DNA of 64,000 nucleotides, taken from positions 100,530,846 to 100,594,845 of the forward strand of contig CM068826.1 of the NCBI GenBank assembly GCA_028554795.2, given 5' to 3'. Of this stretch, positions 721-63,970 are shown in pieces. Each line of letters opens with the position of its first letter. Within the stretch, counting starts at the first letter, position 1. Both the position numbers and the translations under genes were made by a program. The notes under the pieces are model-generated. The model worked only from the letters and a program-made list of their open reading frames with translations, searched no databases and was not told the origin of the DNA. Source of the stretch: Sinohyriopsis cumingii (Eukaryota > Mollusca > Bivalvia > Unionida > Unionidae).

Positions 721-3700
721 CTGGAAAAGAATTTAATTCCATATTTGATAAAAAAATTTGATGGACAAATTATACAACCTTAATTTGTATTTTCTATATT
801 TTGGAATTTTTGAACAATGAAAACGTTTGTAACTTTCTCTGCGAGTATTAACCATATCAACCTATTTAAAAAAAGGCAGAAAAAGCTGACACAGAGGTAC
901 TCAACACTTTTCCGTCTCTGAATATACAATTCTACTATAAATTCCATCTCATTTCAATTCTTCAATTCAGTCTTTGGATTTGTCTTAAGAAAATGAATTT
1001 CTATTTAATTTGTAAGTTTCAACATAGTGTTACTAAATTATAAACCATCTAAATAACATTGTAAGTTGGATTTTCTCACCAATTTTAAACACAAAAATAT
1101 ATGTTTAAGCACATTCTTTGATGTAAAGCATTATTTTATCACTTAAATTAAGCTACTTACTTTCCACACATGTAAGCATTGTCGATGTCTAAAGTTTCTG
1201 GGTGTACAAATTTTTCAAAAGCCTTCTCAAGCGATGGAACATTCTAAAAAAAAAAGTATGCAACCACTAAACTTTTCATCTCAGCTAAGAATGTCTTTAT
1301 GTGTGTGATGTGTGTGTATGCATGCATGTATGTGTGCTAGTTACCACAAAGTTGTTATGTCACTAAATTATAAAGGCATAGTTGAGCTGATAACTTCAGC
1401 TGTTTGGCTGGATGAAATTTATATTTAATGTGAGAAAGATATCCAAATGCTTTATTTATGGAGTAAAAGACTTTGCAATAAAAGTGGTTTATCAAATGCT
1501 ATTTTTCTTACCTTGATGTCAAGGCTGATGTCCAAAAACGGATCATAGGTATTGGACCTTTCTTTGCATTGTAGGCAGAGCACCTGACTCCTTAAGAAAC
1601 CGCCAAAGATGCGATTCACGACTGTTGTCTCTTTGCTGAATTTGTCTAGCCTGAAGAAAGAGTTGGACAGATATTTAGTGACTGATGCCATAGAGAAATA
1701 GATGGGCAGATAATCACAAGGAAGATTACAGTTAAATATAGATATGACAGTGATGGCTCAATAGCTAAATGTATAAAAAAAAACAGATAATTAACATGCA
1801 TAGCTTGGCGCTGTTCTCATGAAACATACTCAGGGATCATCCTGGGCTTTGCCAATGTCGCAAATTGTGATTTTTTGGGCAACAACCTTTTTGACTGTTT
1901 AATGTGTACATACAATCATGGATTTGGAGTACATACAATCATAGATTTGGAGTGAAGACATTCAAAGGGACCATGAAAGGAAGCCACAAACTTGGACACA
2001 CAATGCAATGGAATCTATCTAATTCTTGGCAACATTTTTGCAAACTGGCAACAAAATATTGAGGTTGATGAATTTTTTAGTAACAACTTTTTAAAAGACA
2101 GGACCATCCCTGATACTTGGAACCAAGGGAATGCACCCTCAATATAGAGTAGACACCTACAAATGCAATTTAGAATTTTATTTTATTTTCATATAAACTC
2201 CTTGAGCAAAGACATATGCTTGTGCCATAGCTGAAGTACCTTGTATGTTAAAATGGAACAGCCTATGATGTGTTGTCACAGATTAAATTGATGATTCAAG
2301 GAAACTTAAACAAATTCAGCAATGAAACTTACTTTGTGTAGCCATTATGACAGGCTTTCTGCATGGCTTCTATCACAAAGCGCAGAAATTCATGAGCATC
2401 TTCCTGTCTACCCCAGCTCATCTGCCGAGCAATTACTGAAAGTAACAATGTATCTTTATTATTTTCCTCAGGTCAAAAGCAGGCTGGATAAAATATTTAC
2501 ATTTAAGGCAAAGGGCTGCCTTATCGTTAATGTCATCATTTTTAATTTGCAACAGAAAATAAGAAATCTGCATTACTCTTATGTTGATGATGCTTAAACT
2601 TTAATGCAAGAATCAAAACACTGTTTTTGGTTTTTCCCATGAAGTTAAATTTTGTGCTAAAACCATTTCGTTTTGCAGTGATTTACCACAGTCACTTAGA
2701 TTTTAGCATGTCTCAAATTAATTGTGAGGTAAAAGTCTTAAAATTAAAGAATTATGAACATATAAAAATGAGCAAAAAGCTACTTTTCTTGTTGAAATGA
2801 GAACATTAACTCAAGTGGTAATTGAAAACTAGCTGTATAACAAGCTAATGAGAATCAAAATATTAACTTGGCCACATTCCCCTACAATTGTCAATCATAA
2901 CACAGTAATGCAAAAGTTTTTTCTTCTTCTCCTTGGTTGGAGACATCTATTATCTTGTTCTTTGATTACAATAAGTTCAAAACCTCCTTTTTGGCCTCTG
3001 CCACATGATGTCATTGGCACATATTAAGACCTTCCATTTGATTTAATGACTGAGGGTAAATTGCCAAAGGGGAGGGATTCAGGGTAAGAGGACCTCCCCA
3101 AACTGGGATACAATTTTTTATTTTTTGAAGTAGCCAGGTGTAAAAGAAAAGCAGCCAGGTATATCACCCAACTCTCAGCTCATAAGGAAATCCCTGCATA
3201 ATGTACACACATTTCATATCATGCAACAATTTTGACAAATAATAATGTACACAATAGGTAAATAAAAACTTCACGTGGCAGGATAGGGAAACCTCAATTT
3301 GTTATGGAGTAAAATCTGTAACAAGGACTGATGCAAATCTTGTTAGCTTGAAATTAGATTTCTCTATCCTGCCAACATATAGAGAAGGTTCTTTTAGTCT
3401 TCAAAGGCATGAGCAAGATACAATATAAGCCACTTACATTTCAGCTTTTGCAGAATAGCCTGAGGTCGAATGGCACTGTTTGGTTGTTCCAAAGAGCGTC
3501 GGATGTGTCTCTGAAGTTCACAGAGCATACAAAAGCCAGCCTGTTTGCCTAAAAAGTATAAATGAAAATACATATAAAACAAAGAAATTCAAGACTTTTA
3601 CATTATTACCAAAACACATGACTGTAAAGACCTTAATGATCATGTTTTGGGAAGGGGCTACATACGAATTAAATGGACTAGGCTCAGTTACAATGGAATG

Positions 3701-6700
3701 TCTTCTCAAGTTCTATTAACTATAAAGTTACAGTATGTTATATAAAATACAAGTGTGTAACACTAACATTTATAAAGGTCTTATGTATCTTTTGGGTCAA
3801 GTATTCACCTGTTTATCAGTTAAGTATTTTTGTCAACAACTACACACATTATGTCAGAAACTGTCTTTACTTACATGTCTCATTATGCTCGCTGCTAAGA
3901 CAGTAGTTGACTAGTGGTGGGGTGTATGTCAGACACTGCAGAGTGGAATTCAAAAAGCAGGTATTCCCCAGATTCACTAGTCCAGCACCGACTTTGTGAA
4001 CCTTGCTCCATTCCAATTTGATCTTGTTTTCAGGATACAACATGATTTGGGGGGAAGGCAGACCTTCTCCACCATCTTGAGTACCATTCATTTTTGTACC
4101 TAATAATAATGAAAACAAAAATTATTATTCCAATCAAAATCTATTAAGTATGAAAGTATCCTCAATATGCATTTTAATCAAATGTTTAGGGATGCCTAGT
4201 CAAAATTTAATGTGAAAACTATCTGTATAATCATAATATTAATGTCCCCTACATTTGTCAATCATAACACAGTGCAATGATCAAGCCCCAAAAAGAGACT
4301 GCATCTGTCTTTTAAAATGGGACAATCTCTCTTGACAGAGATTAAACACTTGCATTACAAAGTTTGTGATGTTCTGCATCACTTGTTCAAGAGTGTGAAG
4401 AATTACTTGCAACCATTTGTCTCTGAAGACTTAATTTCCATTATCTCAGCTCTTAGTGAAGAACTCTGCAATCTGCCTTATCCATATTCATAAATAAACA
4501 CTATACAATATGGATGAGAGCTTTTCAAATGGACATGGTCAAGAAATTGGAATGCTAGAACCTGTCTATGCAAAAGGTACAGCAGGTGAGTGTAATGTTG
4601 TTACAGGTTTACTTTCACTTATAAAACAGTGAAGTTATCATCCCTGAATTGGGTGATTATTTGGCTTTCATTTTTCAAGGATCTGCACGAGCATGATTAG
4701 AATGTGTAGGATTATAACTATTTTTATATATAATTTCTCCAACTGATCATGCATTATCTATGCTGCAACAAGTTATGGAAATGCACAGATCATGCAATCA
4801 TGTGGCCTTGATGCAACACAGCAATGCCAGATAAACCTGGTGACTTGATAAACAATTATGTTTCTAACTGACTTTCACGTGATAGTTTTCATTCATGCCA
4901 TGATTAATGAGATGACAATGTAATGCTCCAAGTACCTATCAAGTTTTAGTACCTTTGGTTTTAAAAATATCAGTGATTATTTCAAATCTCAGATGATATA
5001 CAATGGAGCGTGGATTTCACAGTAAGTGGTTTGATGTGGCATTTTATGGCATGCAAATACAAGTAACTGATTTCATGAAGTGGCAGCTGAAGTGTAGTGT
5101 CTTGCCAAAGGACAAAACAGTAACCTGGGATGATCCAATGGTAGGATTCAAATCTGCACACTCCTGGTCCCAAGTCTGGCATGCTAGCCACTGAACCACC
5201 ATAAAGCCAGCCTCCAACATTGCATTTTATGATATGCAGGATGGCACATTGGCCCTATTCTCCAATCCTGAGCCAGAAGGAAGTATTAATAACAAAAGAA
5301 GATCAAAAGTGAAGGTCTTAGTTAAAACAAACTATAGTAGGTTAGGTAGCTGGTTTTCATAGTACTTTCAGGGATTATTTGGCTATTATGCTTTCTCAGA
5401 CACACTGAGACAGCTGACATGGGCAGGTATCAATCCAACGACCCTTTGAATACAAGTCCAAACTAATAAACCAAGCTATCAGAGCTTCCTAAGGCAAATT
5501 ACAGAGTAATCATAAAGCGTGGATCACTATCAACAGTCATAATCAATAACAAATAACCCCATTAAAATACAATATCATACGGTCTAAAAACCACCTCTAT
5601 ATATACTGCCTGGCATAAAATTTCATATCAATAACAGGGTTCACATTATATGAGGAATTTTAAATTTGACTTTTTCTGACAGATGTTGCATCGGTCTCAA
5701 TTAACCCTGATTTACCTATGGCATAAAAATTCTGTCTGAAAGACAGTATACAGAAGGATTAGAAACCACTCTGCTGGCCTAAATGGTTAGAGCATCTGCC
5801 TAAGATGCAGGATGTTGTGGGTTCAATCAATAGCCAAATCATAACAAAGATTCATAAAAATGGTACTAGCAGCTGCCTCACTTGGTGCTGAGCATTAAAA
5901 GGTTAGTTTTGGGACTGGTTGGCCTGAAAGTGATTGGGTGGGACACGATGTTACATGTTTGCAGCATGATGTCCCAGTGCTAGACATCACTATATACTGC
6001 CACACATCATAGCAATATAGCTTAAATTGTTAAAGCTATGTAAAAAATCCAAATCTAACACACACATATAAGTAGATGCTTAGATTGTTTTGCATTGTCT
6101 AATTGTTATTCCATTGTTCAAGATGTTTTAAAAAAAATATTTCAGGACAGTTCATATATTTTAGTTCAGTTCAAGTCAAAAAGCTTAAATAAAAGCCTTC
6201 AACCAATACTAAAACCAACTGCCTAAGAAACAAGAAACAAACAGTCTCCTCTGGATGACCATACTTTGAAGGTTTGAAGGAGCAGTCAGCAACCTTTTAA
6301 AAAAAGGTGATTCAAGGGAAGATCTTGACAAGAAAACAATTGACAGCCTGTGCAATTTTTATCTTTAATGACATTTAATTACAATTAATGTCATCAGCAA
6401 TCACCAGTCAGTGATTTTGTGAAGGAAACTAAAACTGCTCGTCAATTTTATTTGACAAAAATATCTTTGCAGTAAAGTATAAGATATAAACCTCTAATCT
6501 GTTATTGATTTGTCATATACTGACTTGTATTTAATTAATTAATCACCATGGCTCAAAGTACATTTTCTTTTCTGTCATGGTCTAAGAAATGACCTGCCAG
6601 TGATGATCATTCCAACTCTCAAGACTCCAAAGAAACAAACTATATAAAAATTCTGAGAAGAAAATGAATAAATCTCCTAAAACTGTAAGAAATCTTAAGC

Positions 6701-56755: not shown

Positions 56756-59659
56756 GGAATTCACCCACAAACTCTAAAAATGTCAACTTTATCAGTCTCA
56801 GAATTGTTGAAAGAAATAATTAACTGTAGTATCACTTTCTGTAAATTCCCGGAGTCATTGAAGTTAGCAAAAGTATTCGCAATCAATAAGGGAAACGAAA
56901 AGAATGACTAATCCAACTACTGACCCATATTTGTTCTATCTGTACTTTACAAAATTATTGAAAAACACGTAAGCAAACATATTTTCACATATCTTGACAA
57001 GTACCAACTCCTCCATAAATTAGAATCAGGTTCTCGACAGAATCATTCATGTCAAACTGTATTGATAGACCAATGGCTACCAGCAGTAGAATCAGGCGAA
57101 CTTACTGACACAATCTAATTAATTTGGTTGACCATTCGGTGCTAATTCAAATGCTCTCAGTCTACAAGTTTTCTCCAAACTCAGTTATCTGGTTCATGCC
57201 GTATCTCATTAACATACACCAGGTTGTTTGCACGTGTAAATACACTTCCGAACCAAGTGATATCATAAGTGGTGTTCCTCAAGGATCTATTTTAGAGTCT
57301 CTTCTTTTTCTACTATTTATCAATGCCATAGCCTTGTATCCAGCGTACTTTAACACATGTCTGTTTGCTGACATCTCTACATTGCATTTATCTGGTAAAT
57401 CTCTAGACTCCATTACATATAAACTTCAAATCGATCTCAACAATATATCAGTTAGGTGTTAACAAAACAAAATGCATATTAATCTATCTAAAACAAAATA
57501 TATGACAATCGGAACACGGCAGCTTCTATTAACTAAAATGGATTTACTTCTAACTCAAAATGGTTTAGACGTGTCTATTATCAAAAAATCAAAAACTTCT
57601 TGGTATCTACATTGATCAACATCTCAGGTGGAATGCATATATCGATCACTTATGTGCAATGGTAATCAAAAGAATAACTCTGTTAAAACTGCTTTAGAAA
57701 TTTCTACCTGCCCAATCACTTGAACTTTATTTTTCGGGACATATACTAACACTGGTAGATTACGGTTGTACCATAAGGGGAAACACATTCAATTATAGTC
57801 TATCCAGAATTGATAAACTTTCGAATAATACTGAAACTTCCTGTTATGGCTCCCTCAAATGTCCTGTTTTCACGTCTGCAAAGGCTACCTATACAAAAAC
57901 GTTTTCTTTATTTTAAAGGTATCATGACAAGTCTTTAAACGGTCTTTCGCCAGATTATATATCTAACCTAACTGAAATAAGATCATCAGATACCGAGTGT
58001 AATCTCCGATCGACGACTAACAACGATGTCACGTTATAAGTAAAGAACAAGAGCCAGATTGCAACATGTATATGCTAGACCCTGATGCTAATTATTCGCT
58101 TCATAAATGTTGCGAGTGTCAGCCTTGCGAACAATTAGTGTCAAAGCGATGCGTACACAGCTGGCCGGCCAGCTTATGTTACGATAGTGTAAGCCGACAT
58201 CAAAAGGACGGGTGGGAAACCATTTGTATATAACATGGCCATAGGAACTTGTTATTGGTGCCTTATTTGGCTGCGTGCGATTCACAGGTAAGTGGCATGA
58301 ATTGCCGCTGTTGGGCTCAAAGGAACATCAAGTGGGGGTCGTAAATCCACCCTTGACAGACTGCCGGGGAGGGGGCAATGTCTGCTAATTATGTAGACCA
58401 TGGGCGAATCGACATCCACTCGGAATTCAGCAAGGCATTGCCACCATTGGAATCGCAAGTTTAAATCTAGTGTCTTGAAACTAAACGTCAGTAGTCGCTA
58501 AATCATCTTGCGGGAATTACATAAGGAAGTTATAAACTACTTCGACGTCATTCGAAATTGGCGGGAAACATTGTTATTCTGGGAATTACAAAGGAGCTTC
58601 GGACAGGAAGCTTTTAATGACCGGAGGAGCTGTAGGAGACAGAGAAGGGAAATACCCTGGCACAGTTGGTCCCGAGTCTCTGAGAGACAAGAAAAGGAGA
58701 GAAGGGAAGTGGAGGAAGTGGAAGGGTGAAGGACGTGGTTTGATAGACTGAAGGGGTACTGGGCACCAGTCAAGAAATACTACAGATGAGTAGAAACACA
58801 GGACAGGAGGAAAACTTATCACAATAAGTCAGATGATGAAATGGGCCGTCCACTGGTCGAGTGAAAGACGAGTGATAGGGTTTGGAATATTGAATTTCAT
58901 TTGAGAAAGAACTATCTGTTATTGAATGGCATTAAATTTGTTGTTTATTTGAATTCCACTATTTGTGTATTCAGTAATTTAACTGTCGGCATCGCTGACT
59001 GGGAGCTCGGAGCTTTGCATCTATATCACTACTTTAATTTCTAACAAAAACGAGCCAGGGTGGGTCTTCTGTAATAATTAAAGATAATACTGGGAGCACC
59101 CCACCTCAACCTAAGGTAGTCTACGAGACCTTTACAAACGATCTCCAGATTCCGTGGTCGAAAACAAATCATTACAAAAGATCATTTACTGTATTAGCAC
59201 CTACTGCATGGAATTCCTTATCACTAGGATACGCAATTCAAATTCCCTTGCTTCTTTTAAAATATCTTTAATGAAATTCTTTCTTGACCAGCTGGCACGA
59301 CACATTAAAGGTTCTGAATAGAAAACTTTATCATTATATCCATAAATAATATGTCCAGATCTTATTCGATATACATAATACATAAGACTTATGCTGAAAT
59401 GTACGTATCTGTAAATATAATATTATTCCATGTGTGTATATATTTCCCAGTATAGTCACACATAGTCATTCATGTTAAATATGTATGAATGAGTGTGCGA
59501 CGATTCCTGAATATGTCCATGGTCTTGTATATTTTTATATTTTTTTTAACATAGCCAATTACAAAAGTGAGGACCACGTGGCAGATGGGTCAGTCATGAC
59601 CAAATGTGTTATCCTCGTTAAAGAAAGCCTATTATTATTATTATTATTATTATTATTTA
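56753..59659 (+). pseudogene. Dead L2/CR1-like LINE, reverse transcriptase remnant with ATT tail
   Basis: Fragments in shifting frames follow the order of a non-LTR reverse transcriptase. They include NGIHPQTLK, FCKFPESLKLAKVF, a DLVDHSVL-like fragment, the SGVPQGS box (57271-57288), FADIS where FADD is expected (57364-57378), a thumb/connection segment with KTKYMTIGTRQLLLTK, and the terminal APTAWNSL motif (about 59200). The second catalytic Asp is lost, and there are many stops and frameshifts. The 3' end (GAGGACCACGTGGCAGATG, TGTTATCCTCGTTAAAG) and an ATT-repeat tail at 59631-59659 are typical of the L2/CR1 group. The 5' half (endonuclease) is absent. Confidence 0.88.
58027..59136. mobile_element. 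Probable solo LTR, 1,110 bp, inside the LINE remnant
   Basis: Starts TGTCACGTTATAAGTAAAGA and ends ACGAGACCTTTACA (TG...CA). It is flanked by AACGA on both sides (58022-58026 and 59137-59141), the 5-bp duplication typical of LTR retrotransposons. The LINE frame stops at its left edge and resumes at its right edge. A TATA-like GTATATAA lies near 58227. No gag or pol domain is recognised in its open frames, hence a solo LTR or a deleted element. Confidence 0.8.
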
Positions 59660-60298: not shown

Positions 60299-60821
60299 AA
60301 TGATGATAATCTGCAGGCTGTATGTTGGATCCTCCTCTCCCATTTTCGTTTAAACCTGCCAATTACTGGATGCAATTGTGACAAGTCAGCAATTGCATAT
60401 TTTTTCAGGACGCTTGTGGTCTTATATATAGCTGTATGTCGTTTGTCTAATCTTTTCACATTTTCTGTTGGTTTACCTTTGATCAATTATAGATCTTACA
60501 ATTAATAAATACTGAAGTCTCCCCCACCATATCGAATAAACACAGCGTAAAACCTCTTTACAAAAGCAAGCAAATTCTTGCTTACGGAATTCCTCGGAAT
60601 TTACACGATTTTTTTTTGAACTAATCTGGCAGAAAATATAAAAATGATGTTTTTCATCATCTAAATGTAACAGACGTCGGTGCTGTCAATGTACAAATAT
60701 TAGAGAAAGTAACTATTTCGGTAGCTCCATAAGAAGTGTTAACTGTACGTTGAAACACTGATTGCGGATCAACATATGTACTTTATTTGATAACATGTAA
60801 AACATGCAACATAATACTTTA
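59660..60821. other. Spacer between LINE and virus-like block
   Basis: AT-rich, with an ATG/GAT trinucleotide tract (60267-60309). Several small hairpins lie in 60560-60660 (GCAAG-CTTGC; AATGATG-CATCATC). No gene recognised. The left border of the virus-like element may lie here. Confidence 0.5.
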
Positions 60822-61057
60822 AGCAGCAGAGAGACTGAGCCCACCAACTATTCGTTCCAACACAACCCTCTATCGAAAACACTCTTGATAGAAGGTCTTT
60901 ATTTCACAAAATAAACCCTCTATTCAGAAAACTATAATAAATAAGCCTTCTCTGCTGACCAGAAGAGTCATTTCATGAAAAATAACTAACTATAAAAATA
61001 CTTCTTGACGTAGGGAGACGTCCACGAAACACTTGGTGGCTCAGTCTCTCTGCTGCT
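60822..61057. repeat. Inverted repeat flanking the leader of the virus-like block
   Basis: The left arm AGCAGCAGAGAGACTGAGCC (60822-60841, continuing CACCAA) is the inverse of GGCTCAGTCTCTCTGCTGCT (61038-61057, preceded by TTGGT), with one extra C in the left arm. The arms are about 25 bp and the spacer is 185 bases. It ends 65 bases before the first viral start codon. Confidence 0.9.
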
Positions 61058-61122
61058 AGCGATGTAAATATTTTTAATCCTTCAGGATTTCTGTTGTGAA
61101 TTAAAAATTTAAGTTAACAATA

Positions 61123-62113
61123 ATGGCTAACATTGGAGAAGCACATTCTGCTAGACTAGCTCGAGAGCGACTAGAAGCAATAAAAAAATTTCTTCCTGTT
61201 CGTGATAGTGTCAGAGAAAAATTACAAGCGCGGCAGCAAGCACAAGTTGAATTTGCAACAGGTGCAGAAGAATTATTTAAACCTGTTACAACAGCTACTG
61301 AGAAGGCTGCGGCGGTCACCAAAGAAGCTTTATTGGGAGATGAAAAGGGTATTCTTCCAGTGTTAAAACAAACCGCTGAGCAAACTGAAAAGATTCTAGA
61401 AGAACCAAACAAACAAAAAAGATTTTACGAGATCTTCCAACTGATATCGTTGCAGCTCAACCTCCGCCCACCGTTGTAGCTCAACCTCCGCCCACCGCTG
61501 AAGTCGCCGAAGCTGCTGCACCCAAAGTAGCAAAGGAAATTGTTGAACTAACTGCAAAATTTGATCCGGGTTTTATTAAAGTCCTTAAAAACACACCAGA
61601 AGAAAAATTAGCTGAAGTGATATTAGCTGGTTTATATAGCAAAAAAAAAAAGTTTTAAACAAGAAATATGAGTCCACGACTAATGACAATTTTGCTAAAT
61701 GGGCGTATCGTGTATAATACGACAAAAAAGTGGTCAAATCTAACGATCCAGCATACGCAAAACTTGTAAATGCAATAAAGAAACTTGACAAAAGTAGACG
61801 ACAAGGACCTCCTCCTCCCTATTCACCGCCATCAGAGAATCGTCCAGATGAAAAAAATGTTGATGTTCTCGAAGATCTTGGCTCACTCTATGGGGCTACA
61901 GGTAGTGGTCTTGGTGGTCACATTACCTGTCCTGATAATGTTCTCAATGATGTATCACGGCTAGAAGTTCTCTTAGGAGGAAAACGAGCTGGAAATAACT
62001 CACCAGAAATAATTAATGAAGCGGCTGATATTTGTCAGCGACTATTTCGCGGCGGCATCATGGATACTCACATCTATCGAGAACTTATTGATGAACTCGT
62101 CGACAGCGATTAG
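61123..62113 (+). pseudogene. Broken virus-like gene: alanine/glutamate-rich helical protein with proline-rich C-terminal part
   Basis: It opens at ATG 61123 (MANIGEAHSARLARERL), followed by a Gln/Ala/Glu-rich, probably helical stretch. At the A6 run 61415-61420 the coding potential moves to another frame. That frame holds two copies of QPPPT and ends at TAA 61656-61658, just after an A11 run at 61641-61651. Potential then moves to the third frame, which has a TAA at 61715-61717 and continues to 62113. The last part contains PPPPYSPP (a PPxY-type motif) and an acidic C terminus. One gene with two homopolymer frameshifts and one stop is the simplest reading. Two separate genes is the alternative. 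No named family is recognised, and position suggests a minor virion protein. Confidence 0.6.
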
Positions 62114-62133
62114 AGAAATAACAATTAAATAGC

Positions 62134-62562
62134 ATGATAGTACACAATTCTCATCGTAGACCAGTCATGGTCAGGGTGGTAAATTCACGAGTACCCGTTT
62201 ACAAAATGACTTATGGAAATGGATTAGGCGATGTTGTTCAGAGTTTATTTGCGAGAATGGCACCTAAAGCAATACCGATCGCAAAACAATTATCGATGAA
62301 AGCCATTGATGTTATTAAAGATAAAGCTACTGGCGCTGTTGGTAGCGCTGCCGGTAAAGCATTCACGGCGATCAAGGACAGACTAGCACGATTAATACGC
62401 AGAAAACCTCCGCCGGTAAAATTATCAGCCACCGCAGACATGCCAGCAAATGTCGGCAAAGTAATAAATGAAGCCGCAAATCAAAAACTAGCAGCGCTGA
62501 TAAATCCTGAACAAATAAATACAAGTTTGATTGCGGGAAGTGGTCTTCGTTTTAGACGATAA
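62134..62562 (+). CDS. Small basic virion-like protein next to the capsid gene
   Basis: 142 residues, intact. The first 25 residues are basic (HNSHRRPVMVRVVNSR). A glycine motif (YGNGLGDVVQSLF) follows, then an amphipathic Ala/Lys-rich segment, a basic cluster (RLARLIRRKPPP), and a C terminus ending GSGLRFRR. The layout (basic, glycine-rich motif, amphipathic helix, placed beside a capsid gene) recalls the small core or minor capsid proteins of adenovirus-, Polinton- and adintovirus-like elements. This is inference from composition and position, not a domain match. It starts 20 bases after the preceding stop and ends 13 bases before the capsid ATG. Confidence 0.6.
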   Translation: MIVHNSHRRPVMVRVVNSRVPVYKMTYGNGLGDVVQSLFARMAPKAIPIAKQLSMKAIDVIKDKATGAVGSAAGKAFTAIKDRLARLIRRKPPPVKLSATADMPANVGKVINEAANQKLAALINPEQINTSLIAGSGLRFRR

Positions 62563-62575
62563 CTTCTATAATAAA

Positions 62576-63970
62576 ATGTTTAAACGGGAATCCGACCCAG
62601 CATTCGACATAGACGAACCGGTCCTTAAAAATGAATCAGTGCGTGATTATCAGTATTATTCTTATGACGCACGAGAACCAAACAGACGAGGACGAATTGA
62701 ACTTCAGGTTCAGGATACAAGTAGATATTTCCTGCCTGCTGAAGCATTTATTGAAATAGAAGGTGAAATTAAAAAAACAGATAACACAGACTACAATGCT
62801 GCATTTAAAATCGGTTTTGTCAATAACGGAATTATGGCCTTGTTTGATAGTGCTATCTACATGATTGATGGAAAAAATATTGAATCAGTTCAGAAGGATG
62901 TCGATGTTGCTACAACAATAATTAGTCTAGCGAGATATTCTGATGATTATACAAGATCAGCTGGTCCATCAATGATGTTTGCCAAGGACACTTCTAATCA
63001 TCCTAACGATGATCAGTACAATATTAGACGACCAAGAAATAATGCCAATCACGCTGACGCTGATGTGTGGCCGGTGGTTCATGATGCTAACGCAAATTTT
63101 AATTTAGGTTTCGCCGCGCGTAAATTAATGTTGAGCGGGGATAGTAGAAAATTTTCTTGTGCGATTCCGCTGTCTCATATCTTTGGATTTTGCCGAGATG
63201 TCAGAAAGGTAATTTTCGGAGCAAAACATACAGTCGTGCTTGTTAAAAAAGGGGACGACAATGATGCGCTATGGCGAGAAGCTGGTGCTGGTGCTGGTGA
63301 TGCTGGTAAAGTATTAATAACAAAACTATCACTGTGGATGCCGGTAATGACTCCTGCAATTGCCGAAGAACAGCGACTGCTTTCTTTTATGGATCAAGGT
63401 GGTAAAACACTGCTATCGTGGCTTACAACAACCACAGATAGTATTCAAAGTACCATCAATGGTTTATTCACATGGCATATAGCATCACAGCAGGAAGTTG
63501 CAGCGCCGCGACATATTTTCATTGCTCTTCAAAATACTGCACGAGTAAACTCACAAACACATTCGCATATGATATTTGATCAACTTGGTATCACTGACGT
63601 TTCTCTGAGAATAAACGGACATCAGGAACCATCCGAGAACATAATGCTAAATTTTGGTAATAATCATGTTGCACGTGCATATCAACGATTGACGAAATAT
63701 CTAGCGCGCGATCTAAACATCGACACTGGTTTGCAAATATCACAATTGGATTTTACCACTCGTTATCCAATCTATGACTTCTCGCTGCAGCATCTTGATT
63801 TAACCAGACAGTCTGTCGTTGACATTCACTTTCGGGCTATCGTGAATAGAGACGTAGGAGCTATAGCTAATTACAGAGCAATCGCGGTCATACTTTCCGA
63901 TAAAGCAATGTTACTTGAAGGTGCTGGCGGCCGAATGAGAGTCATCGATGTCCCAGTAGAAAACTTGTAG
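62576..63970 (+). CDS. Double-jelly-roll capsid-like protein of an endogenous viral element
   Basis: 464 residues, intronless and intact from ATG 62576 to TAG 63970. I chose this ATG over the upstream non-ATG extension because the overlap with the preceding gene then disappears. Near residues 200-235 it has the SHIFGFCRDVRKVIFGAKHT segment, then VVLVKKGDDNDALW. This resembles the (I/L)FGF..D..K(V/I)(I/L)(Y/F)G..HT(L/V).L.(R/K)....DA(I/L).R signature recalled from animal proteins annotated as double-jelly-roll-like. The N-terminal strands (RGRIELQVQDTSRYFLPAEA) and C-terminal jelly-roll-like beta pattern fit. The role would be the major capsid protein of a Polinton/adintovirus-like element. 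An intact frame suggests recent insertion or conservation. A structure search would settle it. Confidence 0.75.
   Translation: MFKRESDPAFDIDEPVLKNESVRDYQYYSYDAREPNRRGRIELQVQDTSRYFLPAEAFIEIEGEIKKTDNTDYNAAFKIGFVNNGIMALFDSAIYMIDGKNIESVQKDVDVATTIISLARYSDDYTRSAGPSMMFAKDTSNHPNDDQYNIRRPRNNANHADADVWPVVHDANANFNLGFAARKLMLSGDSRKFSCAIPLSHIFGFCRDVRKVIFGAKHTVVLVKKGDDNDALWREAGAGAGDAGKVLITKLSLWMPVMTPAIAEEQRLLSFMDQGGKTLLSWLTTTTDSIQSTINGLFTWHIASQQEVAAPRHIFIALQNTARVNSQTHSHMIFDQLGITDVSLRINGHQEPSENIMLNFGNNHVARAYQRLTKYLARDLNIDTGLQISQLDFTTRYPIYDFSLQHLDLTRQSVVDIHFRAIVNRDVGAIANYRAIAVILSDKAMLLEGAGGRMRVIDVPVENL

Follow-up and report, generated by a model that had tools for sequence, protein, structure and literature searches.

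Left end of an integrated virus-derived element in a bivalve genome, probably a polinton-like virus with a Tlr1-type replicase

The 64,000-nucleotide stretch of DNA analyzed here (the window) comes from the bivalve Sinohyriopsis cumingii, contig CM068826.1, and spans C3:100530846-100594845 in our chromosome numbering. A preliminary description of it had pointed to a virus-like gene block near its right end, with an intact gene for a double-jelly-roll (DJR) capsid-like protein, and had left open whether it belongs to a full element continuing to the right or is a capsid-only relic. The block is virus-like, as described, and a longer element does continue rightward from it; we found the right-hand half of that element at ~C3:100657797-100663720. 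We consider it very probable that a linear DNA element of viral descent has integrated here, with the block as its left end, and that this element falls among the polinton-like viruses with a Tlr1-type replicase (pPolB-S1H).

The DJR capsid gene is an intronless frame of 464 codons on the plus strand (62576..63970), open throughout and containing the capsid-typical segment FGFCRDVRKVIFGAKHT, both as first reported. A hidden Markov model search matched the Pfam DJR-like domain PF21738 (5.7e-21). The predicted structure (predicted local distance difference test score, pLDDT, 84.9) has the jelly-roll fold, with fold matches in the PDB to PBCV-1, Sputnik, mavirus, PRD1 and adenovirus hexon; no intron-bearing cellular gene at a single locus was seen in this genome, which was the other observation named beforehand as refuting the virus-like reading. 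Searching the 2.90-Gb genome with the protein returned at least 91 scored matches at 84-100% identity, 56 of which lack an internal stop (counted from the table); the 35,318 entries of this search are first-look candidates rather than matches, and such counts are lower bounds. Judged from sequence, the Pfam match and the 91 genome matches place the capsid identification far beyond chance.

To gauge constraint on the capsid, we compared 21 copies (the window's, seven search loci, C12 and 12 fetched copies; 19 of the 21 stop-free). The median ratio of nonsynonymous to synonymous divergence (dN/dS) over 210 pairs was 0.31 (range 0.17-0.54; median dS 0.21; no neutral control). Pairwise values may understate constraint because they include time after insertion, and the favoring of stop-free copies may push them downward. 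At the sequence level, the ratio speaks for a capsid protein in use during the spread of the family. A FastTree analysis of 65 capsid sequences joins the genome's own 21 copies in a single, weakly supported clade (0.555). Relatives of the capsid at E <= 0.001 numbered 44 among 7,996 scored candidates, and those with names come from the freshwater mussels Sinanodonta woodiana (56% identity across 62% of the query) and Potamilus streckersoni (57% identity, 43% of the query covered) and from Hydra (28-31%); phage records gave no capsid relative.

Five copies of the element were traced to both termini, four drawn from the top nine of the capsid-match ranking and the fifth being the window's own, and statements about complete copies rest on these five, against at least 91 capsid matches. 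The uninterrupted four measure 16,161-16,772 bp; in the window's copy, ~55 kb of other sequence divides the element and brings its span to 72,054 bp. All five carry terminal inverted repeats (251-283 bp aligned, 91.1-97.6% identity), and the element's tips read AGCAGCAG and CTGCTGCT. Each copy is flanked by a 5-bp target duplication (gcttg, cattt, tttgt, gatgc and, at the window's copy, cttta), and a 6-bp reading, checked by eye, fits two of the five; the boundary of copy C4 is uncertain by one base because its flank carries on a CAG repeat. In the window, the left cttta occupies 60817..60821, its right counterpart following directly after C3:100663720. The left terminal inverted repeat lies at 60822..61072 on the plus strand (251 bp aligned, 245 identical to the right terminus of the same element), and its outer end at 60822 is common to the window's copy and to copies C16, C18, C12 and C4. 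The 26-base repeat tip (60822-60847) recurs inverted ~200 bases inward (61033-61057, 96%), and each terminus could therefore form a hairpin or act as a short inverted-repeat unit. Elsewhere in the genome, two equal-scoring end-repeat pairs (C17:110202800-110219365 and C17:110415429-110431994), both spaced 16,566 bp and ~213 kb apart, look like a segmental duplication bearing an element.

The left half of the window's copy extends to ~C3:100602469, where it ends in a TA microsatellite, and the right half is followed by the same five bases, cttta, that precede the left terminus. Among 40 scored matches, the left end repeat pairs best, at 98% identity, with one on the same chromosome at a distance of 72 kb, and the next match reaches 95%. 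Because the best-partner repeat and the cttta flanks agree, we read the element as whole but split; it appears to be divided by ~55 kb with TA repeats at both borders. An alternative reading of this copy as a truncated element, cut at L010:~624, was dismissed on the end-repeat search and the right terminus. The rightward extension suggested in the preliminary description yielded the integrase, packaging ATPase, protease and terminal inverted repeats that it had listed, and did not yield a plain polymerase B within the element; the right half and the matching 5-bp duplication rule out its capsid-only relic. Within the dividing stretch (C3:~100602421-100657764), frames match viral polymerase B (2.3e-16; L011:694-3757, minus strand) and a BIR (inhibitor of apoptosis) domain (2.2e-12). 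This stretch is perhaps a classical Polinton-type element, and a nested insertion, a rearrangement or a join made by the assembly may each have brought it there.

Read from the left, the plus-strand genes encode open reading frame 1 (ORF1), a basic protein of 142-148 residues, the capsid, a ~154-residue protein with a hydrophobic stretch, a protease (ASFV S273R, 6.7e-5; adenain, 0.096), a fibre-like protein (phage tail fibre family, 1.8e-7), a 197-residue membrane protein whose topology was judged by eye and a penton-like protein. The minus strand then carries genes for a 176-residue protein, an HNH protein (2.4e-14) and a small Cys-rich protein. The right part holds the replicase (plus), an integrase with an rve domain (minus; 3.6e-8 in C18, 8.2e-8 in the window's copy), a phospholipase A2 (minus; 6.6e-12) and an ATPase with a Pox_A32 domain (plus; 1.7e-13 in C18, 3e-15 in the window's copy). 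The phospholipase is fused in one frame with DUF5679 (1.7e-13) in C18. The penton-like protein has 15 relatives among 4,304 candidates, Sinanodonta and Potamilus included. The name SLATT was not adopted for the membrane protein because the NCBIfam match is weak (0.011).

In place of the classical polymerase-B gene named in the preliminary description, the element encodes a Tlr1-type polymerase-helicase fusion. This replicase of ~1155 residues combines a vOTU-like Cys/His pair, a phi29-like palm with ATD for DTD, a Pif1-like helicase and an HNH-like end. Across a 33-sequence alignment the Cys is present in 32 sequences (one gap), and His252, the palm motif A Asp, the Ala and Asp of ATD and the Walker A Lys are present in all 33. 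A structural model of a close relative's replicase gave fold matches to phi29 for the palm and to Pif1 for the helicase. The palm model aligns to phi29 starting at residue 52, and part of an exonuclease-like region may therefore persist.

Scored candidates for the replicase part numbered 7,994 and included 107 relatives, with names such as Sinanodonta, Elysia, Desmophyllum, glomeromycete fungi and symbiont metagenome-assembled genomes (MAGs). Several (P0053, P0097, P0107-P0109, P0113, P0115, P0131, P0137 and others) come from the arbuscular mycorrhizal fungi Diversispora, Racocetra, Cetraspora, Gigaspora, Ambispora and Rhizophagus, from Elysia and from a coral; P0095, P0139 and L041 lie in MAGs named Candidatus Thiodiazotropha (clam symbionts) and Diapherotrites archaeon. 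The MAG-borne relatives are probably DNA of eukaryotic elements misbinned into prokaryote MAGs. A pattern search of genome contigs for the replicase confirmed one of 20 matches, on a 3.1-kb archaeal-MAG contig at 43% identity, which we take as misbinned. For capsid relative P0022 and replicase relative P0071 the longest contig is 37,906 in both, which suggests that the two genes may be linked elsewhere.

Capsid and ATPase each form a single stop-free frame in all five copies. In the window's copy the replicase, the protease (153 of 162 residues) and the basic, ~154-residue, membrane, 176-residue and Cys-rich proteins are stop-free as well; ORF1 and the integrase shift frame, a single stop interrupts the aligned part of the fibre gene and likewise that of the penton-like gene, the N-terminal part of the phospholipase is broken and the HNH gene spans two sequence pieces.

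At the left end, the earlier account of three intact genes needs correction, and its 20- and 13-base gaps between the genes hold. The first gene (61123-62113, plus strand) is open solely at 61123..61479, which matches the C18 frame at 97% for its first 64 aligned residues before a frame shift, and at 61730..62113, which carries a PPPY motif and aligns to ORF1 residues 147-344 (44%). Because ORF1 is a single aligned, stop-free frame in C16 and C18, what the earlier account called a PPxY protein is merely the C-terminal portion of ORF1, which is disrupted in this copy. In C12 and C4, ORF1 crosses the boundary of two sequence pieces and is stop-free in both. Its middle (the 61479-61730 region) occurs in two diverged types, one with PPxY (the window and C4, two of the five copies) and one without it (C16, C18 and C12). 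The small basic protein (62134..62562, plus strand, 142 residues) is stop-free and 89% identical to the C18 frame, and no Pfam family passes the cut-off for it. To the left of the element, a fragment of a reverse transcriptase of long interspersed nuclear element (LINE) type was seen by eye at 57109-57459 (plus strand), as were minus-strand exons at ~1455-4121 that resemble those of a USP36/42-type deubiquitinase; these exons are what was seen of the intron-rich neighboring genes in the earlier account.

In the comparison with known systems, Tlr elements, cryptophyte and other protist polinton-like viruses and adintoviruses were set against the present element by their published descriptions. 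The Tlr elements of Tetrahymena thermophila share the rve integrase, packaging ATPase and DJR major capsid protein, and their replicase has the same putative vOTU-like Cys/His, a palm without the first Asp of DTD, a C-terminal superfamily 1 (SF1) helicase and a homing-nuclease end (PMC11071308, PMC4028283). They differ in that they inhabit a ciliate, have a GIY-YIG end where ours is HNH-like and are described as having no adenovirus-like protease (PMC4028283), whereas the present element lies in an animal genome and encodes both a protease and a phospholipase A2. Tlr1-like replicases have been described from protist elements and transpovirons (PMC11071308); to date, most descriptions of this kind of replicase concern elements of unicellular organisms and giant viruses.

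Polintons (Mavericks) are of similar size and share the inverted repeats, the rve integrase, the DJR capsid, the ATPase and the protease (PMC4028283, PMC8097293), the last here of Ulp1/adenain type. Two Polinton features that we examined are absent, namely a stand-alone, helicase-free, protein-primed polymerase B with exonuclease, where we find a polymerase fused to an SF1 helicase, and the 6-bp duplication of intact vertebrate Mavericks, which have AG or AGT end repeats (PMC8097293); the duplications here are 5 bp in five of five copies and the tip repeats are AGC. In adintoviruses the DJR hexon, integrase, protease and ATPase likewise sit in animal genomes, but these are defined by a hexon and an OTU-bearing polymerase B reciprocally recognizable by BLASTp and by a chromodomain integrase (PMC11071296); one Adintovirus entry stands among the fold matches listed, at 13% identity. 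The polinton-like viruses of 2015 are described as protease-less and, with one exception, as having no rve integrase (PMC4642659). For polinton-like viruses of cryptophytes and other protists, an rve integrase in some clusters, 5-6-bp duplications, phage-like fibres, an SF1 helicase-homing nuclease fusion in some and, in one annotated group, an adenovirus-type protease on the capsid transcript are all reported (PMC12220804). Single traits of the present element therefore have protist precedents, although the same source gives lipase genes as absent, unlike the phospholipase A2 found here in an animal host (PMC12220804). OmPLV of Oxyrrhis marina also fuses an SF1 helicase to a protein-primed polymerase B, with the helicase N-terminal, the exonuclease kept and a tyrosine recombinase (PMC12721341), in contrast to the C-terminal helicase and rve integrase here. 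One survey gives cnidarian capsid genes as the sole animal ones outside the Maverick-Polinton cluster (PMC10120064). The papers listed by the literature searches included none recognizable as describing an animal or mollusc case of such an element.

A classical Polinton/Maverick or an adintovirus whose ordinary polymerase-B gene was overlooked or lost would account for the features common to the supergroup (DJR capsid, rve integrase, A32-type ATPase, Ulp1/adenain-type protease and inverted repeats), and both the polymerase-B frame (L011) inside the dividing 55 kb and the possible exonuclease-like remnant of the palm are in keeping with it. A Polinton polymerase gene, however, occupies ~3 kb, and gaps between mapped genes reach at most ~1.5 kb in the four uninterrupted copies, leaving little space for another. 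With the C-terminal helicase on the replicase and the 5-bp rather than 6-bp (PMC8097293) duplications, this explanation is very unlikely. It is hardly credible that the capsid, open and intronless as its frame is, represents a domesticated host gene or a capsid-only relic; we rejected these readings on the two ends, the target duplication, the many dispersed copies and the partly decayed neighboring genes. A join made by the assembly within TA repeats, rather than a single insertion, might also explain the halves of the window's copy: both borders of the 55-kb stretch fall in TA microsatellites, and besides TA no inverted repeat connects them. This is rather unlikely given that the far end repeat is the best of the scored genome matches to the near one and that the two outer flanks carry identical bases, and the four other complete copies are independent of the window's join.

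A more serious alternative is a transposon that retains capsid genes and spreads within the host genome by transposition, free of particles. The element is multicopy, dispersed and monophyletic in this genome (all 21 copies in the weakly supported clade), and IMG/VR scans with the capsid, the capsid alignment and the replicase alignment gave no confirmed relative. Set against this are the open capsid frames (56 of 91) and the median dN/dS of 0.31, lacking a neutral control, both expected if the capsid protein served the spread; we regard such a transposon as possible but doubtful. The empty IMG/VR scans also count against our placement among the polinton-like viruses, as do several properties of the copies: the halves of the window's copy lie 55 kb apart, no copy has every gene open, the replicase is uninterrupted only in the window's (the C16 frame holds to residue 1080 of 1155) and the integrase forms one frame only in C18. 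So do three of the gene assignments, in that the Peptidase_C5 match of the protease (0.017) lies under the Pfam cut-off, the fibre match spans only ~50 residues and the penton-like protein has no PDB relative by sequence (best E 0.28). The best reading remains a Tlr1-type polinton-like virus lineage of animals that carries a maturation protease; judged by its gene content, the element would work like a Tlr1-type polinton-like virus, with the two departures from Polintons given above.

On this reading, a linear double-stranded genome with inverted-repeat ends would be copied by the fused replicase, aided by its helicase, with priming by the replicase's N-terminal domain, presumably freed through cleavage by the vOTU-like protease. 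The A32-type ATPase would load the DNA into shells of DJR and penton-like proteins, and the adenain/S273R-type protease would mature the resulting particle. During infection, the fibre and phospholipase A2 may serve attachment and membrane passage, and the encoded rve integrase would insert the ends with a 5-bp stagger.

Tentatively, the element may represent a family of Tlr1-type polinton-like viruses, as yet undescribed, that infects animals, carries a maturation protease and a lipase, has entered a mollusc genome many times, possibly still forms particles and links the polinton-like viruses of protists with the Mavericks of animals. If so, finding a Tlr1-type replicase in an animal genome together with an rve integrase, a maturation protease, a lipase and a capsid would mean that this replication system also functions in animals and that protease type and replicase type combine independently. 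The many open capsid copies make the old question of particle production in animals testable in a living host.
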